Assembly: GCF_003669015.1 (NCBI RefSeq)
Contig: NZ_CP033069.1
Span: forward strand, 2,180,501-2,244,500
Reading direction: 5' to 3'
Length of the DNA stretch: 64,000 nucleotides
From: Acidovorax sp. 1608163
GTDB taxonomy: Bacteria; Pseudomonadota; Gammaproteobacteria; Burkholderiales; Burkholderiaceae_C
Positions 32,018 through 35,713 of this stretch are shown here, piece by piece. Below the pieces are notes generated by a model. That model saw only the letters and a program-made list of their open reading frames with translations. It was not told the origin of the DNA and ran no database searches. How positions within the stretch are numbered: position 1 is the stretch's first letter; every line of letters starts with the position of its first letter. A program made the translations under genes and the position numbers.

Positions 32018-32755
32018 ATGAGCCAAAAAGTAGCGTATGTAACCGGTGGCATGGGCGGCATTGGCACCGCCATCTGCCAGCGTTTGCACAAAGATGGCTT
32101 CAAGGTCATCGCTGGCTGTGGCCCTACACGCGACCATGGCAAATGGCTGGCAGAACAAAAGGCTCTGGGGTACTCGTTCTACGCATCGGTGGGCAATGTG
32201 GGCGATTGGGATTCCACCGTGGAAGCCTTTTCCAAGTCCAAGGCCGAGCACGGCACCATCGATGTCCTGGTGAACAACGCAGGTATCACCCGTGACCGCA
32301 TGTTCTTGAAAATGTCCCGCGAAGACTGGGATGCGGTGATCGAAACCAACCTCAACAGCATGTTCAACGTGACCAAGCAAGTGGTTGCCGACATGGTGGA
32401 AAAGGGCTGGGGCCGCATCATCAATATCAGCAGCGTGAATGGCGAGAAGGGCCAAGCAGGCCAGACCAACTACTCTGCAGCCAAAGCGGGCATGCACGGC
32501 TTCTCCATGGCCTTGGCGCAAGAGTTGGCCACCAAGGGCGTAACGGTGAACACTGTGAGCCCTGGCTACATCGGTACGGACATGGTCAAGGCCATTCGCC
32601 CGGACGTGCTGGAAAAAATTGTGGCCACCGTGCCCGTCAAGCGACTGGGTGAGCCTAGCGAAATCGCGTCCATCATCGCCTGGCTGGCCTCGGAAGAGGG
32701 CGGCTACGCCACGGGGGCCGACTTCTCCGTGAATGGCGGCTTGCACATGGGCTAA
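32018..32755 (+). CDS. phaB: Acetoacetyl-CoA reductase
   Basis: 245-residue short-chain dehydrogenase. The N-terminal nucleotide motif is VTGGMGGIGTAIC (residues 8-20), NNAGI follows at 86-90, and the catalytic Ser139, Tyr152 and Lys156 sit in INISSVNGEKGQAGQTNYSA and its continuation AAKAG. It reduces acetoacetyl-CoA to (R)-3-hydroxybutyryl-CoA with NADPH, the monomer for PhaC. A clear AAGGAG ribosome site precedes the ATG. Promoter-like GTTTAC (about 31938) and CATAAA (about 31962) lie upstream, fitting separate transcription after the phaA terminator. Confidence 0.96.
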   Translation: MSQKVAYVTGGMGGIGTAICQRLHKDGFKVIAGCGPTRDHGKWLAEQKALGYSFYASVGNVGDWDSTVEAFSKSKAEHGTIDVLVNNAGITRDRMFLKMSREDWDAVIETNLNSMFNVTKQVVADMVEKGWGRIINISSVNGEKGQAGQTNYSAAKAGMHGFSMALAQELATKGVTVNTVSPGYIGTDMVKAIRPDVLEKIVATVPVKRLGEPSEIASIIAWLASEEGGYATGADFSVNGGLHMG

Positions 32756-32830
32756 AGCCGATGCTAGTGGGCGTGCTGTATGGATCTGCTTTGAGTGAAC
32801 CCCACAGCCATCGCCCAAGCTACAGGGCAA

Positions 32831-32877
32831 AGCGCCCAATAAAAAACCCCGCTCAGCGGGGTTTTTTATTGGGCGCT
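32831..32877. terminator. Bidirectional terminator between phaB and microprotein gene 1
   Basis: A perfect 22-bp stem (AGCGCCCAATAAAAAACCCC plus GC, loop TCA, then the inverse), with T runs inside both arms. It serves phaB from the left and the minus-strand microprotein cassette from the right. Confidence 0.92.
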
Positions 32878-32914
32878 TAGATGACACCGTATGCGGATTG
32901 ATGCACTTTCGTTG

Positions 32915-32989
32915 TCAAGCGTGGGCTGGAGCGCGCTTGCGATCGCGTTCATCGTCAGGCCAGGCGTTCAAAATTGCGGTGGTTGTCAT
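32915..32989 (-). CDS. 24-residue microprotein, copy 1 of 3
   Basis: I do not recognise this peptide. It starts MTTTAILN and continues AWPDDERDRKRAPAHA. AAGGAG lies 9 nt upstream of the ATG at 32989. A conserved GTCAACC-N16-CGTT pair lies at 33017-33043, and the terminator at 32831-32877 follows. It is the most diverged of three tandem paralogues: the last two residues are His-Ala instead of Arg-Cys. In the 14-codon core (codons 9-22) it differs from the others only at synonymous third positions, which argues for translation. No membrane segment; strongly charged centre. Confidence 0.75.
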   Translation of the reverse strand: MTTTAILNAWPDDERDRKRAPAHA

Positions 32990-33016
32990 GCTGAAAAGCT
33001 CCTTAGATGGATCTTT

Positions 33017-33043
33017 AACGCGGCTCAGAAACAGACGGTTGAC
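33017..33043 (-). promoter_or_regulatory. GTCAACC-N16-CGTT promoter-like motif, copy 1
   Basis: Reading the minus strand, GTCAACC (33043-33037) is followed after exactly 16 nt by CGTT (33020-33017), and the Shine-Dalgarno AGGAG starts 33 nt after the first box. Spacing is identical in all three cassettes. The pattern (AAC box, 16-17 nt, CGTT) resembles promoters of ECF sigma factors. The sigma factor is unknown. Confidence 0.5.
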
Positions 33044-33080
33044 AGGTCAATCCAGAAAAATGACATCGCATCTGCCCATG

Positions 33081-33105
33081 AAAAAACCCCGCAAAGCGGG
33101 GTTTT
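33081..33105 (-). terminator. Terminator of microprotein cassette 2
   Basis: On the minus strand the stem AAAACCCCGC, loop TTT, stem GCGGGGTTTT is followed by further T residues. It lies about 50 bp after the stop of copy 2 and shares its core with the other two cassette terminators. Confidence 0.85.
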
Positions 33106-33155
33106 GAAAGGAAGTAATCTGAAAATGCATCCGTTCTTGGGAACGGTATCCTGCT

Positions 33156-33230
33156 TCAGCAACGGGCTGGAGCGCGTTTGCGATCGCGTTCGTCGTCGGG
33201 CCAAGCGGTGGTGATTGCAGTGATGTTCAT
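33156..33230 (-). CDS. 24-residue microprotein, copy 2 of 3
   Basis: The peptide starts MNITAITT and continues AWPDDERDRKRAPARC. CAGGAG lies 10 nt upstream of the ATG at 33230. It has the same upstream boxes (33259-33285) and its own terminator (33081-33105). Function unknown; the Cys at the very C-terminus could be redox- or metal-active, which is speculation. Compared with copy 3, the 14-codon core differs only at two synonymous third positions. Confidence 0.78.
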   Translation of the reverse strand: MNITAITTAWPDDERDRKRAPARC

Positions 33231-33258
33231 ACGAGAAAAACTCCTGAGATAGACCTAC

Positions 33259-33285
33259 AACGCACACCGTTTACCTTGGGTTGAC
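33259..33285 (-). promoter_or_regulatory. GTCAACC-N16-CGTT promoter-like motif, copy 2
   Basis: GTCAACC at 33285-33279 and CGTT at 33262-33259 on the minus strand, 16 nt apart, with AGGAG starting 33 nt after the first box. The following GGTCTATC is shared with copy 3 and could mark the transcript start. Confidence 0.5.
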
Positions 33286-33328
33286 AGGCTGCTGCAATAT
33301 TTTTTAAGGCAGCTGGGCGGTAAGACAT

Positions 33329-33352
33329 AAAAAACCCCGCAGAGCGGGGTTT
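33329..33352 (-). terminator. Terminator of microprotein cassette 3
   Basis: On the minus strand AAACCCCGC, loop TCT, GCGGGGTTT followed by T residues. It lies about 60 bp past the stop of copy 3. Confidence 0.85.
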
Positions 33353-33410
33353 AAGGAATGAAGGGGGAGGTTCAGGTGCAAAGCGGTCCTGTGAGGGGCC
33401 GCATAACGCT

Positions 33411-33485
33411 TCAGCAGCGCGCTGGGGCGCGTTTGCGATCGCGTTCGTCGTCGGGCCAAGCGGTCAAGATTGCGGTGCGGTTCAT
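33411..33485 (-). CDS. 24-residue microprotein, copy 3 of 3
   Basis: The peptide starts MNRTAILT and continues AWPDDERDRKRAPARC. CAGGAG lies 9 nt upstream of the ATG at 33485. The upstream boxes are at 33513-33539 and the terminator at 33329-33352. It is the promoter-distal neighbour of the ABC-F gene, which ends at 33668 on the same strand. The three copies form separate transcription units about 250 bp long, so dosage may be selected. No known family comes to mind. Confidence 0.78.
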   Translation of the reverse strand: MNRTAILTAWPDDERDRKRAPARC

Positions 33486-33512
33486 ACTGGAAAACTCCTG
33501 TGATAGACCAAC

Positions 33513-33539
33513 AACGCGCTCACCGCAGTGCAGGTTGAC
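33513..33539 (-). promoter_or_regulatory. GTCAACC-N16-CGTT promoter-like motif, copy 3
   Basis: GTCAACC at 33539-33533 and CGTT at 33516-33513 on the minus strand, 16 nt apart, with AGGAG 33 nt after the first box. The 128 bp beyond it, up to the ABC-F stop, are A+T-rich and hold no gene. Confidence 0.5.
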
Positions 33540-33667
33540 GCCATTCTGCAAAAAAATGCAACGATTTTGCGGTGGATGGAGATGCTATAAAAGATGCAGC
33601 ACTCTACGCTGAATAGGTAAGCGATAGAGCCCGATATGATCGCAAAAAATATACACTTTATTGCACA

Positions 33668-35713
33668 TTACAGTGTGCTGGTGGCGCCCATTTCTTCAAG
33701 GGCCCCAGAAACTTCCAGCCACCGTTCTTCCAGCGCCTGCGTTTCATCGTTTCCTTGTTTGAGCCGTTTACCGCAGTCTGCAATCTCTGCAGGGGGCAGC
33801 GGTTGTGTCAGGCGTTCTTCCAGGTCTGCGCGTTCGGCAGACAGTGCCGCCAGCCGCTTGTCGATTTGCTCCAGCTCTTTCTTCAAAGGGCGGGCCTTGT
33901 CTGCGAGTTGCTGGCGGGTTTGGGCATCCAGGCGGCGTTGCTCTTTGCTGTCGCGCACTGCAGGGGCTGTCGCCGGTGGTTGGGCTGCGGAGGGCTTGGC
34001 CACTTCGGCGGTCTTTTCGGGCACAGGTGCTGGGGTCGATGGTGCTGTGGCCGCCACAGAGCGTGCAGCCACCTCATCCAGGCGGGCCTGCTCGCGCAGG
34101 CGCTTGGATTCTTCCAGCAGGTAGCGCTGGTAGTCGTCCAGATCGCCATCAAAGGGCCCCACGACGCCACGGCCCACCATCCAGAAGTCTTCGCAGACCG
34201 AGCGCAGCAGCGAGCGGTCATGGCTGACGAGCATGACGGTGCCGTCAAAGTCGTTGAGGGCCATGGCCAGGGCTTCGCGGGTTGCCAAGTCCAGGTGGTT
34301 GGTAGGTTCGTCCAGCAGCAGTAGGTTGGGGCGCTGCCAGACGATCATGGCCAACACCAAGCGGGCTTTTTCGCCCCCGCTCATGGTGCCCACGGCCTGC
34401 TTGACCATGTCGCCCGTGAAGTTGAAGGTGCCCAGGTAGCTACGCAGGTCTTGCTCGCGGCTGGGTTGCTTGGCGTCGGCCCCCAGTTCCTTGGCCAGGC
34501 GGATCATGTGCTCCAGCGGGTTTTCTGCAGGGCGCAACACGTCTAGTTCTTGCTGGGCAAAGTAGCCGATGTTCAGGCCCTTGCCTTCGGTCACGCTGCC
34601 GCCCAGGGCTTTCATGGTGCGGGCGATGGTTTTGACCAGAGTGGATTTGCCCTGGCCGTTGGCGCCCAAAATACCAATGCGCTGACCGGCCAGCACGGAG
34701 CGGTTGACGCCCGTGAGGATGGTGGTGGGCATGCCCTCGTCGTCCACATAGCCGAACGACGCATCGCTGATGGCCAGCATCGGGTTGGGCAGGTTGGCCG
34801 GTTCCTTGAATTCAAAGGTGAAGTCGGCTTCGGCCAGCACCGGTCCAATCTTCTCCATGCGTTCGAGCTGCTTGACGCGGCTTTGCGCCTGCTTGGCCTT
34901 GCTGGCCTTGGCCTTGAAGCGGTCGATGAACTTCTGCAGGTGGGCCATCTTTTCCTGTTGCTTGGAGAAGCTGGCCTGTTGCAGTTCAAGCTGCTGGGCG
35001 CGCAATTCTTCGAACTTGCTGTAGTTGCCGCCGTAGCGGTTCAACTCGCCTTGCTGGATTTGCAGGGTGACGTTGGTGATGGCATCGAGAAACTCGCGGT
35101 CATGGCTGATCACGATCATGGTGCCTGCATAGCGCTTGAGCCAGGCTTCAAGCCAGACCAGGGCGTCCAAGTCCAAGTGGTTGGTGGGCTCGTCCAGCAG
35201 CAATAAATCGCTGGGGCACATCAGTGCGCGGGCCAGTTGCAGGCGCATGCGCCAGCCACCCGAAAAGCTGTTGACGGGATGGTCCAGTTCGCTGACGCGA
35301 AAGCCCAGGCCCAAAATCAATGCCTGTGCACGTGCTACGGCATCGTGGGCGCCGGCGTCGTGCAGGTCTGAATAGGCATGGGCGATGGCCATGCCGTCGT
35401 CGCTGGCTTCTGCGTCGAGCAACTGTTGCTGGACTTCGGCCAGGCGGGTATCGCCCTCCAGCACAAAGTCGGTGGCCGATTGGTCGGTCTCGGGCATGTT
35501 CTGCGCCACCTCGGCCATGCGCCAGCTGCTGGGGATGTGGAAGTCTCCGCCGTCTTCATGGAGTTTGCCGCTGAGCAAGGCAAACAGGCTCGACTTGCCT
35601 GCACCATTGCGGCCTACGAGGCCCACGTTTTCGCCAGGGTTGATGGTGGCGGAAACGCTGTCGAGCACGACTTTGGCGCCGCGTCGCAAGGTAACGTTCT
35701 TGAGGGTGATCAT
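33668..35713 (-). CDS. ABC-F family ATPase (YheS/Uup type)
   Basis: 681 residues with two ABC domains and no membrane segment. Domain 1 has Walker A GRNGAGKSS, signature FSGGWRMRL and Walker B LLLLDEPTNHLDLDA; domain 2 has GANGQGKST, MSGGEKARLV and LLLLDEPTNHLDL. A lysine-rich linker (FKAKASKAKQAQSRVKQLER) joins them. The tail (about residues 550-681) is Pro/Ala-rich then coiled coil. ABC-F proteins act on ribosomes to rescue or tune translation; the long C-terminal coil fits the YheS or Uup branch better than EttA. A terminator separates it from prmB upstream. Confidence 0.92.
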   Translation of the reverse strand: MITLKNVTLRRGAKVVLDSVSATINPGENVGLVGRNGAGKSSLFALLSGKLHEDGGDFHIPSSWRMAEVAQNMPETDQSATDFVLEGDTRLAEVQQQLLDAEASDDGMAIAHAYSDLHDAGAHDAVARAQALILGLGFRVSELDHPVNSFSGGWRMRLQLARALMCPSDLLLLDEPTNHLDLDALVWLEAWLKRYAGTMIVISHDREFLDAITNVTLQIQQGELNRYGGNYSKFEELRAQQLELQQASFSKQQEKMAHLQKFIDRFKAKASKAKQAQSRVKQLERMEKIGPVLAEADFTFEFKEPANLPNPMLAISDASFGYVDDEGMPTTILTGVNRSVLAGQRIGILGANGQGKSTLVKTIARTMKALGGSVTEGKGLNIGYFAQQELDVLRPAENPLEHMIRLAKELGADAKQPSREQDLRSYLGTFNFTGDMVKQAVGTMSGGEKARLVLAMIVWQRPNLLLLDEPTNHLDLATREALAMALNDFDGTVMLVSHDRSLLRSVCEDFWMVGRGVVGPFDGDLDDYQRYLLEESKRLREQARLDEVAARSVAATAPSTPAPVPEKTAEVAKPSAAQPPATAPAVRDSKEQRRLDAQTRQQLADKARPLKKELEQIDKRLAALSAERADLEERLTQPLPPAEIADCGKRLKQGNDETQALEERWLEVSGALEEMGATSTL

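Follow-up and report, generated by a model that had tools for sequence, protein, structure and literature searches.

A conserved microprotein family of the Comamonadaceae with an ECF-type promoter motif that recurs inside a candidate sigma factor gene

What are three very short reading frames doing in tandem in an Acidovorax chromosome, and what might transcribe them? The window (the whole stretch of 64,000 nucleotides that was analysed) carries on its minus strand three ORFs of 24 codons, whose ATGs, read from the window sequence, lie at 33485, 33230 and 32989. Copy 1, MNRTAILTAWPDDERDRKRAPARC, occupies 33411..33485, copy 2, MNITAITTAWPDDERDRKRAPARC, 33156..33230 and copy 3, MTTTAILNAWPDDERDRKRAPAHA, 32915..32989, each including the stop codon and each traced by sequence, tblastn and a frame test. 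The start-to-start distances are 255 and 241 bp, and a Shine-Dalgarno sequence (AGGAG or AAGGAG) lies 5' of every ATG. A 14-residue core, AWPDDERDRKRAPA, is the same in all three copies, and the codons for Ala9, Pro11, Asp13, Lys18, Ala20 and Ala22 within it vary among the copies at third positions only. A hairpin of the form CCCCGC-NNN-GCGGGG with a T-run follows each stop codon on the same strand, giving predicted intrinsic terminators at 33332..33352 (copy 1), 33087..33101 (copy 2, CCCCGCTTTGCGGGG then T6) and 32847..32861 (copy 3). A sequence-only reading of the locus had claimed as much, namely three minus-strand ORFs with their own Shine-Dalgarno sites and terminators, a CCCCGC/GCGGGG terminator core, a period of about 250 bp and purely synonymous third-position changes at six core codons, and we found all of these features as claimed. 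The pattern exceeds chance, because the family to which the ORFs belong is conserved in other genera. No fourth copy was found by tblastn in the genome of the window, a single contig of 5.05 Mb, where the next match had an E-value of 2.18.

The search of relatives that the same reading had proposed recovered a real conserved family that extends to other genera. With copy 2 as the tblastn query, 57 of 299 genomes from the taxonomic family of the window matched at E ≤ 0.1, and a 20-row profile detected the microprotein in at least 50 of these 299 genomes and at least 20 of 141 genera (E ≤ 0.005), the counts being lower bounds as the best 27 candidates per genome were scored. A wider search took in 399 genomes of the order, of which 14 or more belong to the window's own family, and scored the best 20 candidates per genome; every match at E ≤ 0.005 fell within that family. 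Named loci, the best 80 of 88 confirmed, belong to Acidovorax, Paracidovorax, Comamonas, Diaphorobacter, Simplicispira, Giesbergeria, Extensimonas and others. One hypothetical protein annotated in Comamonas testosteroni TK102 is a relative of 40 aa, and a second relative has the same kind of annotation in Delftia. Two records titled Gammaproteobacteria and Pantoea (L064 and L067) hold the microprotein together with the usual Comamonadaceae-type neighbours, and their titles may be wrong. Neither of two peptides matched any Pfam family at E ≤ 10, and NCBIfam gave no match, in agreement with the earlier statement that the peptide belongs to no known family. Judged from these searches, the microprotein is a real, so far unnamed family.

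Members range from 18 to 40 residues, with N-termini that differ in both length and sequence, and certain members end directly after RDRKR. In the core, W-P-x-D-[DE]-R-D-R-[KR]-R, the residues W, D, R, D, R and R show no variation among 125 promoter-bearing members, P is kept in 124 of the 125, the acidic position is E in 116 and D in 9, and the basic position is K in 121 and R in 4, a conservation that is partly by construction because the sets of 125 and 126 members were selected with the core pattern. A structure model of a 31-aa member was uninformative (pLDDT 59). Among the genomes positive in the profile search, at least 50, a single match was found in 41 and two or three in 9. Three genomes of the same genus as the window have one copy each in this search, and the three-copy array is therefore probably a local expansion. 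The argument that three separate units imply a need for dosage or differential control thus does not hold in general, given the single match in 41 of the positive genomes, and the array is best regarded as a feature of the lineage.

On one side the array faces a convergent phaB-like SDR gene (32018..32755, plus strand) and on its upstream side lies an ABC-F ATPase gene (33668..35713, minus strand), both names being ones that we presume from the sequences. The two genes are conserved flanks of the family. In 63 of the best 80 named loci, those whose members had not already been seen, both flanks were present in 56, ABC-F alone in 4 and phaB alone in 3, and 45 further loci, viewed in stretches of about 3 kb, gave both flanks in 30, ABC-F alone in 6, phaB alone in 1 and neither in 8. 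The eight loci with neither flank come from more diverged lineages, and their neighbours change from lineage to lineage. Terminator-like hairpins were detected 3' of the ORF in 103 of 125 members, vs 16 of 125 in a reversed-sequence control. Stand-alone units, together with the differing neighbours in diverged genomes, suggest that the microprotein gene acts in trans rather than on adjacent genes. A mobile or plasmid-borne element was considered and rejected, since no plasmid match to the three-copy array was found and in most of the loci examined the gene is fixed between the ABC-F gene and phaB. The copy 3 terminator lies at the centre of a palindrome at 32832-32876 (GCGCCCAATAAAAAACCCCGC...GCGGGGTTTTTTATTGGGCGC), which may end transcription on both strands and so serve phaB too.

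Selection was examined across the family. In the core, pN/pS was 0.116 in frame vs 2.03 and 1.89 in the two shifted forward frames, computed on 80 sequences drawn from 110 unique ones, and the antisense frames gave 0.188 where third positions are shared and 6.03 and 4.91 in the other two. Outside the core, in regions that were not used for selecting members, the 24-aa class gave 0.55 for codons 2–9 and 0.36 for codons 20–24, with 1.19–1.78 in shifted frames (90 members; 66 unique N-terminal and 69 unique C-terminal stretches). The fraction of non-consensus bases in this class (n=90) was 0.09, 0.06 and 0.23 at codon positions 1, 2 and 3 and rose to 0.61 in the 60 bases 3' of the stop, so that conservation stops at the stop codon. 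Synonymous drift and amino acid conservation were confined to a single frame, as in a coding gene. By these measures the microprotein is under purifying selection, and the view that selection acts on the peptide, and not on an RNA repeat, is upheld by the frame test, by the end of conservation at the stop codon and by Rfam, which gave no match at gathering score in the window. Frameshifts or non-synonymous drift in relatives combined with a conserved RNA structure, the outcome named beforehand as speaking against a peptide, were not seen in these codon-level comparisons.

These data bear on several other ways of reading the locus. Short stand-alone transcription units with their own promoter and terminator resemble sRNA genes, and tandem sRNAs are known elsewhere (CcsR1–4, according to excerpts of PMC10253847), but a locus that yields small regulatory RNAs, with the ORF incidental or secondary, is very unlikely here: conservation tracks codon positions and ends at the stop, N-terminal length changes by whole codons, and together with the Rfam result this rules against an sRNA repeat. 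A leader peptide or attenuator for a downstream gene would account for a terminator placed directly 3' of a short ORF. At the main locus, however, phaB is convergent and no same-strand gene lies downstream, the ORF has no regulatory run of codons, and the entire core is conserved and not a few codons, on which grounds the attenuator was rejected as highly improbable. Tiny ORFs in tandem copies also recall small toxins such as those of type I toxin-antitoxin systems. The peptide, by reading its sequence, is charged and hydrophilic and has no membrane stretch, in place of the hydrophobic membrane peptide expected of a type I toxin, and its stress-type promoter and mostly fixed chromosomal place are unlike an addiction module, so a toxin is hardly credible.

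The ORFs are preceded by a shared motif. GTCAAC-N16/17-C[AG]TT lies 5' of the ORF in 125 of 126 unique members, with a spacer of 17 in 121 and of 16 in 4, and the 126th carries TGTCATC-N17-CGTTG. In the window, putative ECF-type promoters, so named from this conservation, read CGTCAAC-N17-CGTTG for copy 1 (33512..33540), TGTCAAC-N17-CGTTG for copy 2 (33258..33286) and TGTCAAC-N17-CGTTA for copy 3 (33016..33044), all on the minus strand. Across the family a T-tract is enriched about 10–17 bases 5' of the -35 element, represented before the copy 1 promoter by TTGCATTTTTTTGCA (33547..33561, minus strand), and it is a possible UP-like element; a conserved CA lies at a fixed distance 3' of the -10 element. 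The observations of the sequence-only reading were confirmed and its central claim about the peptide was supported; the shared promoter motif and the sigma factor link described below were absent from it.

How specific the motif is depends on how strictly it is defined. Counted in the 50 positive genomes, a set defined by presence of the microprotein, the full motif TGTCAACS-N16-CGTTG has 50 sites (37 genomes with at least one), vs 10 in the reversed control; assigned by hand from coordinates, 39 of these sites belong to the microprotein, 6 to Asr-like genes and 5 to other places. With one mismatch allowed, the genome of the window has 51 sites vs 52 in the control, and the looser GTCAAC-N17-CGTT gave 45 sites in six genomes vs 70 in the reversed control, and by coordinates 9 of the 45 belong to the microprotein, 6 fall within the sigma factor gene and 3 belong to Asr-like genes. 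As the looser forms are at or below control, only the full consensus is enriched. An AAC-type -35 element and a CGT-type -10 element, separated by 16–17 bp and shared by several genes, were found, as in an ECF regulon. A variant -35, GTCATC for GTCAAC, followed by N16 or N17 before CGTTG, occurs at the microprotein paralogues L151 and L339 and at the Asr-like loci L251 and L256. GTCAACC-N16-ACGTT recurs at one homologous place, near base 1500, in the loci L206, L210, L214 and L231, within what is presumably an ABC transporter gene and facing a divergent gene that we take to be cyanophycin synthetase-like, and similar motif letters are found at further sites in genomes G262 and G120. One of the five other full-consensus sites (G147, L334 near base 1030) lies shortly 5' of an ORF whose product begins like a signal peptide and which may be another target.

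To find a sigma factor that might read this motif, sigma factors were surveyed with PF04542, a census that leaves sigma-54 outside its coverage. The genome of the window has 12 matches, 11 above the cut-off, and five PF04542 factors each were counted in G072 and G222, both positive for the microprotein. RpoH, FliA, RpoE and a weakly matching NF006550/PRK09047 ECF factor were assigned in the latter two by tblastn against proteins of the window's genome, and RpoD by rank. RpoE was set aside on the sole ground that it resembles sigma-E/AlgU through region 4; the sigma-E/AlgU -35 consensus differs from this motif. The candidate is the NF006550/PRK09047 ECF sigma factor, whose gene is followed in the window's genome by genes for DUF3619 and then DUF3106 proteins, and which is present in 46 of the 47 positive genomes tested. 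The exception, G016 (94% complete; locus L340 on contig C97), has the microprotein and its promoter and no sigma factor match. An ECF19-like sigma factor was rejected as the regulator, being found in 20 of the 47 positive genomes, with no match at E ≤ 1e-20 in the other 27. Autoregulation from a site upstream of the sigma factor gene was likewise rejected: no motif was found upstream of the gene in the window's genome, and the motif is intragenic.

CGTCAAC-N17-CGTT lies inside all 46 sigma factor genes examined, in the codons for RQR(x5)RY (codons 154-163 in the L175 frame); 4 of these 46 loci came from the motif search itself and the rest from a family search or from protein-match coordinates. 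Arg154 and Arg162 are both encoded by CGT in 46/46 genes, whereas CGT makes up 12% of the 666 remaining Arg codons of these frames, and Gln155 is CAA in 46/46, vs 41% of 455 other Gln codons. Third positions between the motif codons vary freely, and the codon changes in each of the eight further columns with a conserved Arg. Among 80 columns with a conserved residue and a degenerate codon, 6 are codon-invariant, including the three motif codons, a constancy that is not a tally of independent events as the 46 strains are related. The CGTT of the internal site ends 127 nt 5' of the DUF3619 ATG in the window's genome, and an ATG is at an equal distance in all 12 loci listed. In the five sigma factor loci that show the next base the site reads CGTCAAC...CGTTA, one base off the consensus at each end. 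Beginning with C and ending in CGTTA, it is therefore not itself a full-consensus match. The sigma factor gene of the window's genome overlaps the DUF3619 gene, whose product has one apparent membrane-spanning stretch. The frozen motif codons tie the internal motif to this sigma factor gene and suggest negative feedback through the DUF3619 protein. Because the same motif lies upstream of the peptide and is frozen in the sigma factor gene, the microprotein is likely a main output of this ECF regulator, a predicted stress sigma factor.

A second carrier of the motif is a gene whose Ala/Lys-rich product begins like a signal peptide and resembles the secreted protein Asr. Of 22 such loci, which come from 21 of the 27 genomes searched, 19 have the motif 56–107 nt 5' of the Asr-like start, and in a random control it occurred in 1 of 5000 random 200-nt segments. 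Two of the three loci lacking it have a TGTCATC or CGTCATC form. The Asr-like protein has no Pfam or NCBIfam match, and the genome of the window has no match to it at E ≤ 1e-4. Among the Asr-like genes L235-L255, many share a second element like GATTCTAGCGACAAAA about 20–30 bases 5' of the -35, which is perhaps the site of another regulator.

Two further readings concern what the motif is and what its main product does. CAACG-N15-CGTTG is an inverted repeat with half-sites about two helix turns apart, as would suit the operator of a dimeric transcription factor, but the conservation is asymmetric, with TGT kept 5' of CAAC and no matching ACA 3' of CGTTG. The spacing of 16–17 and the CA at a fixed distance, which resembles a start site, also point away from an operator, and a search of 32700-33750 detected no sigma-70-type promoter; we regard the operator as quite unlikely. 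The microprotein could also be a feedback partner that binds its own ECF sigma factor or DUF3619, since the sigma motif accompanies no other gene as consistently and nearly all positive genomes (46/47 tested) have this sigma factor. The peptide, though, was detected in just a part of the taxonomic family (at least 50 of 299 genomes), and such a role is an outside possibility that we would keep in mind.

Several known systems invite comparison. The DUF1127 proteins (which we take to be PF06568) are small and Arg-rich, and those of Rhodobacter sphaeroides (CcaF1) and Agrobacterium, together with YjiS, are soluble like the microprotein. No sequence similarity links the two groups, as judged from the Pfam search with two peptides (E ≤ 10), and the microprotein differs in being about half as long as a short DUF1127 protein, in its motif and in its ECF-type promoter; the window contains no Rfam sRNA family. 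The ECF regulons of the sigma-E/AlgU type are alike in their AAC -35, CGT -10 and spacer of 16–17 bp, and the overlap of the sigma factor gene with a gene for a product with one apparent membrane span follows the ECF sigma/anti-sigma layout. Unlike in sigma-E/AlgU regulons, a motif lies here within the sigma factor coding sequence before DUF3619, and full-consensus sites occur most consistently before the gene of a peptide of 18–40 residues. The Asr-like proteins, related in type to acid-shock proteins, carry the same promoter motif and are apparently exported, whereas no signal peptide is apparent in the microprotein. According to excerpts of PMC10253847, CcaF1 lies behind a promoter of the stress sigma factors RpoHI/RpoHII and acts on RNA, and the tandem CcsR sRNAs of alphaproteobacteria are processed from one transcript with the DUF1127 mRNA. 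Like CcsR, the microprotein array consists of small units in tandem that are presumably controlled by a stress sigma factor, but every unit of the array has a separate promoter and terminator, and what is conserved is the ORF. PMC12501420 describes several DUF1127 paralogues per genome and action in trans by binding the sensor kinase PhoR.

Taken with the rest of the data, the reading that we consider probable is that the array consists of tandem conserved microprotein genes whose promoters are read by the NF006550/PRK09047 ECF sigma factor and whose peptide is an effector acting in trans when the sigma factor is released. Under this proposal, envelope stress would free the ECF sigma factor from DUF3619, a putative anti-sigma factor. 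The freed sigma factor would then transcribe the short microprotein mRNAs and the Asr-like gene, and the intragenic promoter in its own gene would boost DUF3619 and so provide negative feedback. The charged, soluble peptide would act in trans, its conserved motif perhaps docking on a cytoplasmic partner, as a DUF1127 protein does on PhoR. That all of this makes up an undescribed Comamonadaceae ECF system, with its strongest consensus promoters at one to three microprotein genes, an intragenic anti-sigma promoter and an effector of about 20 residues that docks on a central cytoplasmic machine, has in our estimate about an even chance of being right. In a limited literature search, which did not extend to the name NF006550/PRK09047 itself, we found no description of this ECF regulon and no account of the microprotein sequence or the promoter motif.

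For the organisms concerned, the ECF sigma factor NF006550/PRK09047, found beside DUF3619 and DUF3106 and for which the limited search turned up no regulon, would gain a promoter, further targets and a circuit. Its most consistent full-consensus target would be an overlooked peptide of 18–40 residues with a short, nearly invariant motif. A promoter-like motif appears to be kept inside the sigma factor gene across 46 species by a constraint on synonymous codons, and such intragenic constraint is a pattern worth seeking in other ECF systems.
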